Shown one piece after another: positions 29,664 through 35,221 of a DNA stretch of 64,000 nucleotides. The number at the start of each line of letters is the position of its first letter. The stretch's first letter is position 1. The stretch covers positions 7,361,001-7,425,000 of the forward strand of contig NZ_CP108455.1 in the NCBI RefSeq assembly GCF_036241575.1, read 5' to 3'. The stretch comes from Streptomyces sp. NBC_01267. GTDB taxonomy: Bacteria > Actinomycetota > Actinomycetes > Streptomycetales > Streptomycetaceae. The notes under the pieces were generated by a model. That model searched no databases and had not been told where the DNA came from. It worked only from the letters and a program-made list of their open reading frames with translations. The position numbers were made by a program, and so were the translations under genes.

Positions 29664-31025
29664 CTAGATCCCCACGTCCCGGCGCCGCATGTCGTCCAGC
29701 GACTCCCGCCGCACCAGCACCCGGGCCGAGCCGTCCCGTACGGCGATCACCGGCGGCCGGCCGACCAGGTTGTAGGCGGAGGCCATGGAGAGGTGGTAGG
29801 CGCCGGCGGCCGGTACCGCCAGCAGATCACCGGGCCGTACGTCCGCGGGCAGCGCCACCGCGTCCGCCAGCACGTCGCCCGCCTCGCAGTGCCGCCCCAC
29901 CACGGTGACCACGGCGGGCCCCGCGGTCGGACGGCGGCCGATCAGCCGCGGTGCGTACCGGACGCCGTACAGGGCCGGTCTGGGGTTGTCGCTCATCCCG
30001 CCGTCGACCGCCACGAACGTACGCCCACCGGTGCGTTTGACGGAGAGCACCCGGTAGACGGCGACCCCGGCGGGCCCGATGACCGCGCGGCCCGGCTCCA
30101 GGGTGAGCCGCGGCACCGGCAGTGCGTTCCGCGCGCAGCCGTCCGCCAGCTCCGCGTGGACCCGGGAAGCCAGGACGGCGGTGTCGAGGCTCTCCTCGCC
30201 GGGCCGGTAGGCGATGGCATGGCCACCCCCGATGTCCAACTGCCCCAGTACCACGCCGTGTTGTTCCCGCACCCGGGCCATCAGCCCGACCAGGCGCCGC
30301 ACCGCCGCGACATACGGTCTGGCCGAGGAGATCTGGGACCCGATGTGGCAGTGCAGGCCCACGAGTTCGAGGTGCGGCTGGCCGAGGATCTTGGCGATGG
30401 CGTGCTGCGCGGAGCCGTCGGTGATCGACAGACCGAACTTCTGGTCCTCCGTACCGGTACGGACCGCGGCGTGCCCGCCCGCGGCTATCCCCGGCACCAC
30501 CCGGACCATCACCGACTGCCGCTCGCCCGGGGCGACGGTCGCGGCCAGCCGGGCGATCTCGGACGCGCTGTCGACGACGATCCGTCCCACGCCCAGCCGG
30601 ACAGCGGCACGCAGGTCGGCCGGGCTCTTGGCGTTGCCGTGCATCACGATCCGCTCGGGCGGGAAGCCCGTGGTGACCGCCAGTTCCAGCTCGCCCGCGG
30701 AACAGACGTCGAGGCCCAGGCCCTCCTCCTCGGCCCAGTGGGCGACGGCCCGGCACAGGAACGCCTTCGCGGCGTAGACGACATCGGCCTCCGGGAAGGC
30801 CGCGCGGTAGGCGCGGCAGCGCCCCCGGACCTCGGCCTCGTCGAGCACGTACACCGGGGTGCCGAACCGGTCGGCGACCTCGGCGAGCGAGACCCCGCCC
30901 ACGGTCACGTCCCCGTCGGGCACGGACCGGGCGGAGGCGGGCCAGACGGAGAGCCCGTCGGTGTCCGGCTGTTGACCGGACGGGGTGGAGGCCGCGCAGA
31001 GGGGAGAGGGGACGGAGACAGTCAT
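29664..31025 (-). CDS. lysA: Diaminopimelate decarboxylase
   Basis: 453 residues, fold-type III PLP enzyme. The PLP Lys is in VVYAAKAFLC; HCHIGSQ, LDIGGGHAIAY, LEPGRAV and the HCEAGDVL substrate loop mark the DapDC/alanine-racemase-like group. It converts meso-diaminopimelate to L-lysine, the last step of lysine synthesis. It begins nine bases after the stop of the upstream small gene and so is probably translated with it. Streptomyces usually has another lysA beside thrA/hom; this copy may be a paralogue with a specialised role or act on a related amino-acid substrate. Confidence 0.88.
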   Translation of the reverse strand: MTVSVPSPLCAASTPSGQQPDTDGLSVWPASARSVPDGDVTVGGVSLAEVADRFGTPVYVLDEAEVRGRCRAYRAAFPEADVVYAAKAFLCRAVAHWAEEEGLGLDVCSAGELELAVTTGFPPERIVMHGNAKSPADLRAAVRLGVGRIVVDSASEIARLAATVAPGERQSVMVRVVPGIAAGGHAAVRTGTEDQKFGLSITDGSAQHAIAKILGQPHLELVGLHCHIGSQISSARPYVAAVRRLVGLMARVREQHGVVLGQLDIGGGHAIAYRPGEESLDTAVLASRVHAELADGCARNALPVPRLTLEPGRAVIGPAGVAVYRVLSVKRTGGRTFVAVDGGMSDNPRPALYGVRYAPRLIGRRPTAGPAVVTVVGRHCEAGDVLADAVALPADVRPGDLLAVPAAGAYHLSMASAYNLVGRPPVIAVRDGSARVLVRRESLDDMRRRDVGI

Positions 31026-31034
31026 GGGTACTCC

Positions 31035-31469
31035 TCAGCCGATCAGCGGACGGAGAGCGGAGCCCGTCGACGGACTCGCGGCGCGCGGCGTGGCGGCGGG
31101 CCGCTCGCCCCGGTCGGGCCGGACGGCCTCCCGTCCGCCGGACTCCGGGTACGGGTACGGGTACGGGTACGGGTACGACTGGGCCGCGGGCGCGGAGAAC
31201 GGCGGGTCGACGGTGAGCGCGGCGATCCCGAGCGGCCCGACCAGCGCCCGCAGCGCGGCCTCGGAGAGCCTGATCCACGGCTGGCCGCCGCCCAGCGTGT
31301 TCCGCAGCCGTGCCTCCGAGGTGAAGCCGACTGCCGTACGGACACCGGGCGGAGTGCGGAAGACCCGGACCGAGCAGCTCGTGCATCCCGGCCGGACGGG
31401 CACGAAGAGGGGTCCGGCCGGGAGTTGTTCGGGAGGTTCTGTGGTGTCGGCGTTCTCACTCGTGGGCAT
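31035..31469 (-). CDS. SAV_915/SseB-like protein with YP repeat
   Basis: 144 residues from ATG 31469, chosen because AGGAG lies seven bases upstream. Residues ~15-95 form a compact alpha/beta domain ([12 protein letters not shown], then GFTSEARLRNTLG) that resembles SseB-type or SAV_915-type conserved Streptomyces proteins; function unknown. The C-terminal third is disordered and contains SYPYPYPYPYPE, encoded by five in-frame copies of a hexanucleotide. It sits directly upstream of lysA on the same strand. Confidence 0.7.
   Translation of the reverse strand: MPTSENADTTEPPEQLPAGPLFVPVRPGCTSCSVRVFRTPPGVRTAVGFTSEARLRNTLGGGQPWIRLSEAALRALVGPLGIAALTVDPPFSAPAAQSYPYPYPYPYPESGGREAVRPDRGERPAATPRAASPSTGSALRPLIG
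31147..31176. repeat. Hexanucleotide microsatellite (GGGTAC x5)
   Basis: Five perfect GGGTAC units inside the gene at 31035-31469, encoding alternating Tyr-Pro on the minus strand. A change by whole units keeps the frame, so copy number could vary without killing the gene. Confidence 0.95.
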
Positions 31470-31649: not shown

Positions 31650-33623
31650 TCAGCCGACGTGCACGCGGGGCCGCAGCGCCGGGTCGGGTTCCGCGCGGCG
31701 CAGGACCTCGCGGGTCACCGGGGCCACCTCTCCGTCACCGAACACCAGGAAGCGCAGCAGATGCCCGACCGGGTTGCCCTCGGTCCAGTTGAAGTAGGCG
31801 TGCGGAACCTCGCCGGTGTGTTCCCGGAGCTGGAGCAGCACGGCCGCGATGGTGTTCGGCACCCCCGGCCCGACGACCCGCAGGATCTGGACCCCGTAGC
31901 GCTCCTCGCCGTGTACGGCCACGTCCACGGTGAAATCGGACGAGTCCTGGACGGTGACTTCGAGGAAGAGCACCGCCCGTCCGCCCGGGATGTACGTCGC
32001 CTCGCGCTGGCTGTTCTCCTTGGCGCGGTACTCGGCCGCACTGTGCTCGTGCGGTTCGTTGGCGATGAGCTGCAACGGTCCGGAACGGGCGGCCAGGTCG
32101 ACCAGCCGGACCGCGGCGGCGTCGAGCGTCACCTCGGCGGCGCGCAGTTCGAAGGCGCGCCGCACCCGCGAGGCGAACGAGGTCAGCAGGATCCCGACGA
32201 TGAAGAGGGAGGCGATCTTCAGGCCGTCGGGGCGCTCGATGACATTGGTGACCAGGGTGTAGGCGAAGACCGCGGTGATGGCGCCGAAGCCCAGCGCGGC
32301 CCGGCGGCGGCGCCGGTGGAGGACGGCGACCGTGGAAGCGAACGACGCGGAGAGCATCAGGACCAGCACACCGGTGGCGTAGGCGCCGCTCTGCTTGTCG
32401 ACGTTGGCGTCGAACTGCCAGGTGATGAAGAAGGCGATGGCCACGAAGATGAGCACGAGGGGGCGGACCGCGCGGGTCCACTCGGGGGCCATGCCGTAGC
32501 GCGGCAGATAGCGCGGTACGAGATTGAGCAGCCCGGCCAGCGCCGACGCGCCCGCGAACCACAGGATGGCGATCGTGGAGACGTCGTAGACCGTCCCGAA
32601 GGCCTCGCCGAGATACGTGTGGGCGAGATAGGCGAGCGCGCGCCCGTTGGCCTGGCCGCCCGCCTTGAACTCGGGGGCGGGGATGAGGATCGTGGTGGCC
32701 AGGCTGGACACCAGCAGAAAGCCGCTCATGATGAGTGCGGCCGTGGTGAGCAGCCTGCGGGTGTCCCGGATCCGCCCGGCGGGGTTCGCGTACGTGTCGG
32801 AGGCGGCGCCGCGGATCTGTGGCATCACCGCGACCCCGGTCTCGAAGCCGGACATACCGAGCGCGAGCTTGGGGAAGACCAGCAGCGCCACGCCGATCAT
32901 GGCGAGCGGTGAGGAGTGCGCCGCCCTCGCCGCTTGCCACCAATTGCTCACGTCCACCGGTTTGTTCGCCACGTTCCAGACCGCGTCGGCGAGGACGATC
33001 AGGTTCAGCCCGAGGTAGATCGCCACCAGGACGACCGCGATGCCGATCGCTTCCTTGAAGCCCTTCAGGAAGATCGCGCCGAGTCCGGAGATCAGGCCGA
33101 GGGTGATCCAGAGGTTGGCACCGTGCAGCCAGTGCGGGGCGAACGGGTTCTCCACCACATGGGCGGAGGCGTCGGCGGCCGACAGAGTGATGGTGATCAT
33201 GAAGTCGGTGGCCGCGAAACCGAGCAGCACCAGGACGAAGAGCTTCCCCGCCCACCAGGGCAGCAGTCTCTCGAGCATGGCGATCGAGCCCTCGCCGTGC
33301 GGGCTCTCGTGCGCCACCCGCCGGTAGACGGGCAGCGCCCCGCCGAGCGTCAGGGCCAGCAGCACCAGGGTGGCGAGAGGGGAGAGCAGCCCGGCGGCCA
33401 GCGCGGCGATACCGGGCTGGTAGCCGAGTGTGGAGAAGTAGTCCACACCGGTCAGACACATGACCCGCCACCAGGCATGTCCCTTGTGCTCGGCCGGGGG
33501 AGTGCCGTGCGGACCGGGGTGCCGCGCCGTCTGCTCGCTCAGCCCCTCCAGCAGCCAGGCGCGCCAGGAACGGGAGGACCCGGCAGCCTTTTCCGGGGTG
33601 GGCTCGGCCTGGGTGCCGGTCAT
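31650..33623 (-). CDS. APC-superfamily amino-acid permease with C-terminal domain
   Basis: 657 residues. About 12 membrane helices between ~50 and ~480 ([20 protein letters not shown] and [13 protein letters not shown] [14 protein letters not shown] are substrate-pocket segments of APC carriers), then a ~170-residue soluble tail beginning near [14 protein letters not shown]. The tail may be a regulatory domain, an arrangement seen in long Streptomyces APC permeases. Likely imports an amino acid or related cation; substrate not inferable. Transcribed alone. Confidence 0.82.
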
Positions 33624-33822: not shown

Positions 33823-34920
33823 TCAGCCGCGTGCCGCGCGCCGCTCGGCGACGGCAGCCGCCAGCTCGCCCAGCAGCCGTTCGGTCTCCTCCCAGCCGAC
33901 GCAGGCGTCCGTCACGCTCTGTCCGTGGACCAGCGTGTCCAGCGGGCCGGGCTCCTGGCGCCCCGCCAGCAGGAAGCTCTCCAGCATCACCCCGGCGATC
34001 CCCTGCTCGCCCGCGGCCACCCGGGCGGCGATCTCCCGTACGACCTCGGCCTGACGCACATGGTCCTTGCCGCTGTTGGCGTGGCTGGCATCCACCACCA
34101 GCCGGCCGGGCATGCCCGCGGCGTCCAGCAGCGCGAGCGCCTCGCGGACGTCCTGCGGACCGTAGTTGGGGCCGCCGCGGCCCCCGCGCAGAATCACGTG
34201 GCAGTCGGGGTTGCCGGACGTCGAGACGACCGAGCCGTGGCCGTCGCCGTCGATCCCGAAGAACACATGACTGCCCGCGGCGGTGCGACAGCCGTCGACC
34301 GCGGACTGCACGTCTCCGTCCGTGGCGTTCTTGAACCCGACCGGCATCGACACCCCCGAGGCCAGCTGCCGGTGCACCTGGCTCTCCGGCGTTCGCGCAC
34401 CGATGGCGCCCCAGGTCACCGCGTCGGCGATGTACTGCGGACTCGTCGGCTCCAGGAATTCGCAGCCGACCGGAAGCCCCGTGTCGAGTACGTCCAGCAG
34501 CACCTGACGGGCGAGGCGCAGCCCCCGCTGCACGTCGTGCGTGCCGTCCAGACCGGGGTCGTTGATGAGTCCCTTCCAGCCCAGCGTCGTCCGCGGCTTC
34601 TCGAAGTAGACGCGCATCACGACGCAGAGCTCACCGCGGAGCGGAGCAGTGGCCGCGGCCAGCAGCCGCGCGTACTCCAGGGCCGCGGCGGGGTCGTGGA
34701 CGGAGCAGGGCCCCACGACGAGCAGGAGCCGGTCGTCCGCTCCGGTGAGCACGTCCCGTACCTCACGCCTGCTCTCGCGGACCAGCGCCACGCGCTCGGC
34801 GCCGAGGGGGAGTTCGTCCCGCAGCGCGGAGGGTGGGACGAGCCGCTGGAAGTCGGTGACCCGGAGGTCGCCGGTGTCGGACGTGCCGGTGGACGAGGCG
34901 GCGGTGGTGGCGGTGTGCAT
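33823..34920 (-). CDS. Class I DAHP synthase (attenuator-controlled)
   Basis: 365 residues, AroF/AroG-type, not the class II type usual for primary metabolism in actinomycetes. Conserved segments: LLLVVGPCSVHDP, RVYFEKPRTTLGWKG, GARTPESQVHRQLASG, HVILRGGRGGPNY and VDASHANSGKDH. It condenses PEP and erythrose-4-phosphate, the entry to the shikimate pathway. SD GGGAAG precedes the ATG. The ~200-base leader carries a Trp/Tyr-rich leader peptide and a terminator, so expression is predicted to respond to charged Trp/Tyr tRNA. A second, class II enzyme probably exists elsewhere. Confidence 0.93.
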   Translation of the reverse strand: MHTATTAASSTGTSDTGDLRVTDFQRLVPPSALRDELPLGAERVALVRESRREVRDVLTGADDRLLLVVGPCSVHDPAAALEYARLLAAATAPLRGELCVVMRVYFEKPRTTLGWKGLINDPGLDGTHDVQRGLRLARQVLLDVLDTGLPVGCEFLEPTSPQYIADAVTWGAIGARTPESQVHRQLASGVSMPVGFKNATDGDVQSAVDGCRTAAGSHVFFGIDGDGHGSVVSTSGNPDCHVILRGGRGGPNYGPQDVREALALLDAAGMPGRLVVDASHANSGKDHVRQAEVVREIAARVAAGEQGIAGVMLESFLLAGRQEPGPLDTLVHGQSVTDACVGWEETERLLGELAAAVAERRAARG

Positions 34921-35001
34921 GGTGCTTCCCGTTTCTGCTGCGGCGGGAGGCCGTCGGCAGTGACGTGTGTGTCACCCGGTACCAGCCCGCCTGTACGACG
35001 A

Positions 35002-35029
35002 AAGGCAGAGACGGATGCGTCTCTGCCTT
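35002..35029 (-). terminator. Attenuator terminator of DAHP synthase leader
   Basis: A perfect 12-bp stem (35002-35013 with 35018-35029) and four-base loop, followed on the minus strand by TTTCGTCG. It lies between the leader peptide and the DAHP synthase start. Confidence 0.8.
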
Positions 35030-35032
35030 GCT

Positions 35033-35088
35033 GGCTCCGGGTGATCGGTGGGTCAGCGCACGTGACCTCCGGCTCCACCCGGAGCCGG
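35033..35088 (-). promoter_or_regulatory. Alternative RNA pairings of the attenuator
   Basis: In the leader RNA, CCGGCTCC/GGAGCCGG (35069-35088) forms an 8-bp hairpin. The same left arm, extended to 11 bases (35076-35086), is also perfectly complementary to 35033-35043, which lies three bases before the terminator stem. The two pairings are mutually exclusive, as in ribosome-controlled attenuators. Confidence 0.6.
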
Positions 35089-35124
35089 CTCATAGCGCCA
35101 ATACCAACAGTTCACTGCGGACAT
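35053..35124 (-). CDS. Trp/Tyr leader peptide of DAHP synthase
   Basis: 23 codons, MSAVNCWYWRY followed by a Pro/Gly-rich tail and a TGA. Two Trp and two Tyr codons lie in a five-codon window, far above chance. The stop precedes the antiterminator-like segment. No SD is present, but TACGGT on the minus strand (35132-35137) ends seven bases before the ATG, so the transcript is probably leaderless. Stalling at Trp/Tyr codons when the charged tRNAs are scarce would keep the transcript from terminating and raise DAHP synthase. Confidence 0.8.
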   Translation of the reverse strand: MSAVNCWYWRYEPAPGGAGGHVR

Positions 35125-35131
35125 GGGAGAG

Positions 35132-35137
35132 ACCGTA
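35132..35137 (-). promoter_or_regulatory. -10 box of attenuator transcript
   Basis: TACGGT on the minus strand, seven bases before the leader-peptide ATG; a weak TTGCCG about 19 bases further upstream may be the -35 element. Confidence 0.45.
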
Positions 35138-35221
35138 GCAGAGCGTGCGGACAGCCCGGCAACCCGTCCGGGCGGTCGGTGCCGGAGGACACCTGCGCCT
35201 GATGGGCGACGGAAGAGCCGG

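Follow-up and report, generated by a model that had tools for sequence, protein, structure and literature searches.

On the minus strand of the window, by which we mean the whole 64,000-nucleotide stretch of Streptomyces sp. NBC_01267 DNA analyzed here, a short open reading frame and a series of complementary strands lie directly upstream of a DAHP synthase gene. The elements are the following:

35132 to 35137, minus strand: -10 element TACGGT of the leader promoter, read from the sequence
35053 to 35124, minus strand: leader peptide ORF of 23 codons (23 aa) from the ORF list, MSAVNCWYWRYEPAPGGAGGHVR and its stop, with an ATG start and predicted to be leaderless
35092 to 35106, minus strand: candidate control codons W7 Y8 W9 R10 Y11, TGG TAT TGG CGC TAT, read from the sequence
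35076 to 35089, minus strand: strand A (GCCGGCTCCGGGTG), with either B or C as its partner, from alignments and folding
35069 to 35076, minus strand: strand B (GGAGCCGG), forming an 8-bp hairpin with A, from alignment and folding
35046 to 35071, minus strand: small stem around the stop codon, the apical part of the A:C arm, from the MFE structure
35030 to 35043, minus strand: strand C (CACCCGGAGCCAGC), the alternative partner of A and also complementary to F, from covariation
35002 to 35029, minus strand: intrinsic terminator hairpin with a 12-bp stem, from covariation and the fold
34973 to 34991, minus strand: strand F (GGCGGGCTGGTACCGGGTG), A-like, past the terminator and able to pair with C around it, from complementarity tests
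33823 to 34920, minus strand: class I DAHP synthase of 365 aa, the putatively controlled gene, from profile matches

Direct reading of the sequence places TACGGT at 35137–35132, followed by seven bases and the ATG at 35124; this element, the 23-codon frame and the W-Y-W-R-Y cluster, all proposed earlier in a sequence-only reading of this DNA, agree with the sequence and with the ORF list. The A:B hairpin is formed by CCGGCTCC/GGAGCCGG (8 bp), and the long-range A:C pairing by GGCTCCGGGTG/CACCCGGAGCC (11 Watson-Crick pairs), which ends three bases from the 12-bp terminator stem. The two are mutually exclusive, strand A being common to both. The terminator arms extend over 35028–35018 and 35013–35003, the count of 12 bp being obtained for 35029–35018 with 35013–35002, that is with inclusion of the outer A-U pair of the fold, and a weak U-tract, TTTCGTCGT, begins at the 3′ end of the hairpin. 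The 8-bp, 11-bp and 12-bp helices and the three-base gap had been given in the same earlier reading, and the strand coordinates bear out each of them. The 125-nt leader (35124–35000) folds with −64.4 kcal/mol, compared with −45.5 ± 3.7 kcal/mol for 200 dinucleotide shuffles (z = −5.14), none of which was as good.

The product of the downstream gene (34920–33823) matches TIGR00034 with 465.5 bits, for a cut-off of 173.2, and PF00793 with 274.3 bits, in agreement with its original assignment as a class I DAHP synthase. DAHP synthase stands at the entry to the shikimate pathway, from which three amino acids and many Streptomyces antibiotics derive. Screening of the window's genome revealed one class I DAHP synthase match only, and two further places that match class II; the gene in the window is thus a second kind of DAHP synthase and not the sole one. 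Elsewhere in the window, between a diaminopimelate-decarboxylase-like gene (29664–31025) and an ORF of 657 aa (31650–33623), there is a perfect tandem repeat of CGGGTA (31146–31177, 5.3 copies).

Comparison of 71 non-redundant actinobacterial leaders preceding class I DAHP synthase genes reveals a TANNNT sequence 6–8 nt upstream of an in-frame leader start in every one of them (71/71; distances of 5–10 nt were allowed, and shifted positions gave an expectation of 1.35), the start codon being GTG in 39 and ATG in 32. For the window, this spacing is compatible with a leaderless transcript beginning at 35124. Codons for Trp, Tyr and Phe occur together within seven codons in 60 of these leaders, and Trp is present in 64. 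Conservation of the peptide frame had been proposed as a check, and indeed both the frame and the aromatic cluster are kept in the leaders of the relatives. The accompanying idea that one gene may read out more than one end product is strengthened by the 60 leaders with all three residues and by the absence of Trp codons from all 17 leaders that precede chorismate mutase genes (see below). When positions are counted from the last aromatic codon, taken as position 0, Tyr occupies position −3 in 61/71 leaders; position −2 holds Trp in 34, Phe in 16 or Tyr in 5, position −1 Arg in 36, Trp in 21 or Tyr in 10, and position 0 Phe in 66 and Tyr in five, among them the window's leader. The last aromatic codon is separated from the core of strand A by 5 nt in 44 leaders, by 8 nt in 20 and by 6 nt in 2, the core not being found in the remaining 5.

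The peptides fall into several types: WYxR[FY] in Streptomyces and Glycomyces, SYRWF in Micromonospora, SYWRF in Kribbella, YWRF preceded by A, G or T in Mycobacterium, Dietzia, Gordonia and Tsukamurella, YFWF in Rhodococcus, Nocardia and Amycolatopsis, and RWYAYF in Arthrobacter and Microbacterium. Codon choice sets the leaders apart from the genes. Tyr is written TAT 77 times and TAC 4 times in the 71 leaders, compared with 5 and 245 times in the enzymes of the same loci for which enough sequence was available; for Phe the counts are 72 TTT and 15 TTC in the leaders and 5 TTT and 324 TTC in those enzymes. This points to codon-level selection, the leaders mostly favoring UAU and UUU, synonyms that the DAHP synthase genes avoid. 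For both UAU and UUU a single tRNA per amino acid is expected, and the strength of the preference raises the question of why the disfavored codon is chosen.

For the RNA pairings we used an alignment of 43 leaders (A1), 11 of the 54 listed (L007, L008, L039, L043, L059, L068, L135, L140, L142, L182 and L207) having been excluded before pairs were counted in order to keep the register. A:C is paired in 97.7% of the cells of A1, and three of its pairs are doubly changed; for the terminator the figure is 94.6%, and double changes affect nine of 11 pairs. On all five measures none of the 500 shuffles equalled A:C and the terminator, and the slid controls were lower without exception. In the same alignment A:B is paired in 93.4% of cells with one-sided changes only, two of its six pairs deviating solely through unpaired cells. 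By eye this hairpin is preserved in A1 despite codon deletions in L185, L195 and L216, and strand B is absent from L205. Of the covariation that had been expected of the stems, the part concerning the long-range pairing and the terminator was found, whereas the 8-bp hairpin is maintained without double-sided changes.

Exchange of strands between 39 leaders showed stronger pairing of A with the C of the same leader than, on average, with swapped C strands (mean z −1.48, Wilcoxon statistic 0), the own C being inside the best 10% of swapped strands in just 19 of the 39. The end of the sequence GAGCC is 2.8 ± 1.7 nt from the terminator stem (n = 42), and the stop codon a median of 10 nt from C (n = 67). 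The automatic search for A:C chose other partners in several leaders, for example in L007 and L008 and in the majority of those of the Rhodococcus type. In the type found in Rhodococcus, Nocardia and Amycolatopsis the hairpin has no U-tract (18/18), and C and F form a direct hairpin (18/18). The sequence-only reading had cautioned that the 11-bp pairing and the terminator do not overlap. This holds in the aligned relatives of the window's type, among which no conserved pairing overlapping the terminator was found. Since A:C shares no base with the terminator, the usual mechanism of a shared-strand antiterminator is not the one to be read from these leaders.

The peptide pattern identified an aromatic leader at 127 of 184 class I DAHP synthase loci, including 28 of the 44 loci from named genomes; the pattern had been widened after the leaders were first viewed, so that 127/184 is not a blind count. 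A further 36 loci (L044–L084 less five, mostly non-actinobacterial) lie outside the 184, and two leaders were added afterwards, L011 via the covariance model R1 and L200 via a peptide pattern. In an even class-level sample the enzyme occurs in 78 of 394 genomes and the leader in 52 of these 78. The other 26 comprise 23 from family f17, in which the enzyme stands without the leader in 23/23, and three single loci (L126, a masked region; L212, of a distant Streptomyces type; L214, a 45%-identical copy). At the same 78 loci R1 gave full-length matches on the gene strand in 46, at E ≤ 1.4e-9. A second family sample, drawn from 210 genomes with the enzyme and including ten chosen for spread, contained the leader at 42/42 loci.

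Within Streptomyces a class I DAHP synthase is present in 21 of 392 genomes. Seven copies that are 76–100% identical carry the leader; in copies of 46–60% identity (L091–L105) neither the peptide pattern nor R1 detected one. R1 matched in 17 of the 392 genomes, strongly (E < 1e-27) in 7, each time before a class I DAHP synthase gene. An occurrence of the element before other Streptomyces genes was considered for ten weak matches (L232–L241) and rejected, no leader being visible by eye; at two of them, L232 and L234, the match is a tRNA gene with a terminator after it. Some further weak R1 rows correspond to the opposite strand of true elements, and two weak matches in the class sample (L292, L293) have no aromatic leader. 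On the basis of these sequence comparisons, the window's element belongs to a conserved actinobacterial leader family.

The same element is found before other genes as well. Among the genomes of the class sample without a class I DAHP synthase match at E ≤ 1e-60, R1 matched in 17 (E 1e-7 to 1e-13), 16 of family f17 and one of f19, and in 17/17 (L274–L278, L280–L291) the element precedes a gene whose product scores above the Pfam cut-off for a chorismate mutase domain; a further match of equal strength, in G676, lies outside these 17 mutase loci. On its N-terminal side the mutase protein partially matches the class I DAHP synthase family in 14 of the 17 cases, 12 of them above the cut-off, three proteins consisting of the mutase alone. 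The leaders, of which MNRSFAFIEPAPGSRS, MGRYSSFTRPAPGGPVA and VDRRYFGFTPPAPDEPVGAP are examples, contain Phe in 17/17, Tyr in 11/17 (in L285 only as the last residue) and Trp in 0/17, the contrast with the 64/71 DAHP synthase leaders that contain Trp having a Fisher p of 6e-13 if relatedness is ignored. In L275, L277 and L280 the Phe at position 0 is the only aromatic codon. A:C is paired in 97.8% of cells of the mutase set, with one doubly changed pair, the stem equivalent to the stop-codon stem in 94.1% without double changes, and the structure as a whole exceeds its shuffles (worst case 3/500). Moreover, a second copy of the element in G729 (L279, on C21) precedes a gene for tyrosyl-tRNA synthetase (TIGR00234, 260 bits, cut-off 113.8), and the leader at this one locus, VLTRRVYPNGSGVSRSPARP, has Tyr as its sole aromatic codon. 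Across these loci the leader codons follow the end products of the gene. The strongest argument for the codons acting as sensors is that Trp is missing when Phe and Tyr are the sole end products to which the enzyme leads. A peptide in which two or three end products are read, with codons that change along with the enzyme, amounts to a natural experiment on the tuning of attenuators.

We consider it likely that the element in the window is a ribosome-mediated attenuator of the class I DAHP synthase gene, most likely a homologue of aroR from C. glutamicum; its tuning would be to Trp and Tyr in the window, with Phe as a third amino acid in most relatives. Attenuation by the ribosome had been suggested from the window alone and is well supported by the comparisons of leaders, codons and covariation, which establish the peptide, the selection of codons, A:C, the terminator and the distances between these parts. 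The conserved spacing of the −10 element indicates that the polymerase would start at or next to the ATG of the leader, which the ribosome would then translate without a Shine-Dalgarno sequence. With ample charged tRNAs the ribosome would reach the stop codon, its leading edge at the start of C; sitting between A and C, it would prevent A:C, and the terminator would form and end transcription. When tRNA-Trp or tRNA-Tyr is uncharged, it would stall at W7, Y8 or W9, where footprint arithmetic predicts that strand A stays free. A:C (11–12 bp, to which the stop-codon stem is added) would then displace A:B and abut the terminator stem, allowing read-through and synthesis of the enzyme. For the last step our best guess is steric hindrance, in which a helix lying about 3 nt upstream may keep the base of the terminator stem from closing in the exit channel of the polymerase. 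In the footprint model, in which the ribosome extends 13 nt beyond the first base of the A-site codon, stalling at W7, Y8 or W9 leaves the core of A free, stalling at Y11 covers A and prevents A:C, and at the stop codon the ribosome extends as far as the first bases of C.

Several results count against this explanation. In folding calculations without proteins or kinetics the terminator has a probability of 0.99 in every modelled position of the ribosome, so that no switch at the terminator emerges from the folding energies. The energy model also retains A:C with the ribosome at the stop codon, where its exclusion is a purely steric argument. L275, L277 and L280, in which only the Phe at position 0 is available, indicate that a stall covering A works too, contrary to the simple version of the mechanism. 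To these are added the want of double-sided covariation in A:B, the missing B in L205, the own C being among the best 10% in only 19/39 leaders, the lack of a U-tract in the Rhodococcus/Nocardia/Amycolatopsis type and the f17 enzymes that have no leader. A classical shared-strand antiterminator was considered and rejected, as no modelled ribosome position removes the terminator and A:C ends 3 nt short of it. This argues against the classical trp layout, not against leader-peptide control as such. Tentatively, and as something possible rather than probable, we propose a single RNA chassis whose codon alphabet can be exchanged (Trp/Tyr/Phe for DAHP synthase, Phe/Tyr for the mutase, Tyr for tyrS) and a steric antiterminator, in which the helix released by the stalled ribosome would dock on the terminator stem without sharing a strand with it. 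A helix that abuts the terminator without overlapping it makes it testable whether an antiterminator must share bases with its terminator.

The prominence of position 0 invites a reversed logic, in which a ribosome stalled there covers A, the freed C favors read-through or expression, and A:C is the "off" structure. Position 0 is indeed the most constant codon (Phe in 66 and Tyr in 5 of 71), the core of A begins 5 or 8 nt after it in 64/71 leaders, so that a ribosome at this position covers A, and in three mutase leaders it is the sole aromatic codon. We nevertheless regard this alternative as unlikely: the Tyr at −3 (61/71) and the Trp, Phe or Tyr at −2 (55/71) are conserved as well and, in the window's geometry, leave the core of A free, the free C has no visible conserved partner inside the terminator, which retains its probability of 0.99, and covering A in place of A:C did not raise the accessibility of the Shine-Dalgarno sequence consistently. 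In that constrained folding of 34 of the 39 non-redundant leaders, accessibility with A:C was higher in 10 and lower in 13 (p 0.35), a negative result weakened by the automatic choice of start sites, some of which look wrong (for example in L185).

Strand F offers another possibility, a relay of helices in which C pairs with A or with F, and F in turn with a strand close to the ribosome-binding site; translation of the leader would then set both initiation and termination for DAHP synthase. The naked full-length leader of the window is predicted to fold as A:B plus C:F around the terminator, and the C:F hairpin is direct in all 18 leaders of the Rhodococcus/Nocardia/Amycolatopsis type. Complementarity of C and F exceeds that with shuffled downstream sequence in 17 of 36 leaders at p ≤ 0.05 (mean z −1.70), being non-significant in the other 19, and a leader's own F pairs with C better than swapped F strands do (39 leaders, mean z −0.71, p 0.0015). 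Nevertheless, the effect on the Shine-Dalgarno sequence that the relay predicts is absent over the 34 leaders just described, in what is a weak test with automatic start sites, and F is synthesized only once the polymerase is past the terminator; we therefore give this arrangement little probability. That the element is a structured or protein-binding RNA in which the short ORF is incidental appears highly improbable: nucleotide conservation is strong, the APGGAG portion of the peptide mirrors hairpin A:B and, in the accessible text of Seliverstov 2005 (PMC1262725), mutations of the candidate control codons in the S. coelicolor ilvB leader are reported to be without effect, yet in-frame aromatic residues are kept while the nucleotides change (WYWRF, RRYPYF, RWYAYF, YFWF, SYRWF, RFYF), codon choice is unlike that of the genes, and a change of gene brings the loss of Trp.

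Returning to attenuation by a leader peptide, the aroR attenuator of C. glutamicum was reportedly first described by Neshat et al. in 2014. According to the available portions of two later sources, leader-peptide control of a DAHP synthase gene has been reported in that organism for aroR/aroF (PMC11802643, PMC4046766), and the aroR peptide carries Phe-Tyr-Phe before aroF and responds to limitation of Phe, not of Tyr (PMC11802643). As far as these descriptions go, the window resembles aroR in having a short leader with an aromatic cluster directly before a DAHP synthase gene and differs from it in the cluster, Trp-Tyr-Trp-Arg-Tyr without Phe instead of Phe-Tyr-Phe. Two of our loci, L205 and L206, which are likely to be from Corynebacterium, have RFYF leaders; L206, which is part of A1, has A, B, C and an adjacent terminator, and L205 has A, C and the terminator without B. 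A search of 171 genomes from the presumed genus did not find the aroF of C. glutamicum itself.

Other known systems share parts of the layout. In the sections available of the survey in PMC1262725, the trp attenuators of Streptomyces and Corynebacterium have control codons in a leader peptide, alternative hairpins and a terminator, as does the window; complementary triples occur in their antiterminator and terminator hairpins, and double or triple UGG repeats in their leader peptides, whereas in the window A:C has no base in common with the terminator, and the leader draws on several different aromatic codons. The LEU element before leuA of Actinobacteria, as outlined in the same sections, likewise combines a leader ORF with alternative pairings over the same strands, but pairs leucine codons with the Shine-Dalgarno box of leuA (PMC1262725), whereas the window has an intrinsic terminator and no consistent link to the Shine-Dalgarno sequence. 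The uORFC-13-1 motif before aroF of Acholeplasma, of which the accessible description is given in PMC8632094, has a uORF with at least one Phe codon beside a terminator, similar to the layout in the window; it belongs to another lineage, comprises 24 sequences and involves Phe only, and the comparison with the window is by description. For the Phe and Tyr operons of actinobacteria the available parts of Seliverstov 2005 (PMC1262725) report no upstream structure that is conserved, and the accessible part of an RNA-seq study of S. lividans contains eight leaders, none of them before a DAHP synthase gene (PMC8079986). In the openly accessible literature we found no description of such leaders for Streptomyces, Mycobacterium or chorismate mutase genes.

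The idea of attenuation thus stands, its novelty being limited by the control of DAHP synthase by a leader already reported for aroR/aroF of C. glutamicum in the portions of the sources cited above. Attenuation is not new here in kind; what is new is the Trp/Tyr/Phe alphabet, the spread of the family, the tracking of the gene by the codons and a design in which, for the window's type, no conserved pairing overlaps the terminator. Rfam 15 yielded no match at the gathering score in the window or in L206, L012, L038, L009 and L274, and a search of 34900–35200 at E ≤ 5 gave just a weak match to a microRNA model, far below its cut-off; a family without an Rfam 15 match could be added to that database.

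As a separate observation, short ORFs with dense runs of Phe, Tyr and Trp, such as MSAKFYFYFFAYLAPLAEGEGL, also occur about 130–225 nt upstream of proteobacterial class I DAHP synthase genes (L041, L051, L054, L055, L057, L071, L079, L083 and L084), in Bordetella, Cupriavidus, Janthinobacterium, Polaromonas, Trinickia, Devosia and others. In L041 the leader appears, by eye, to pair with the terminator's own 5′ arm, which is the classical layout.
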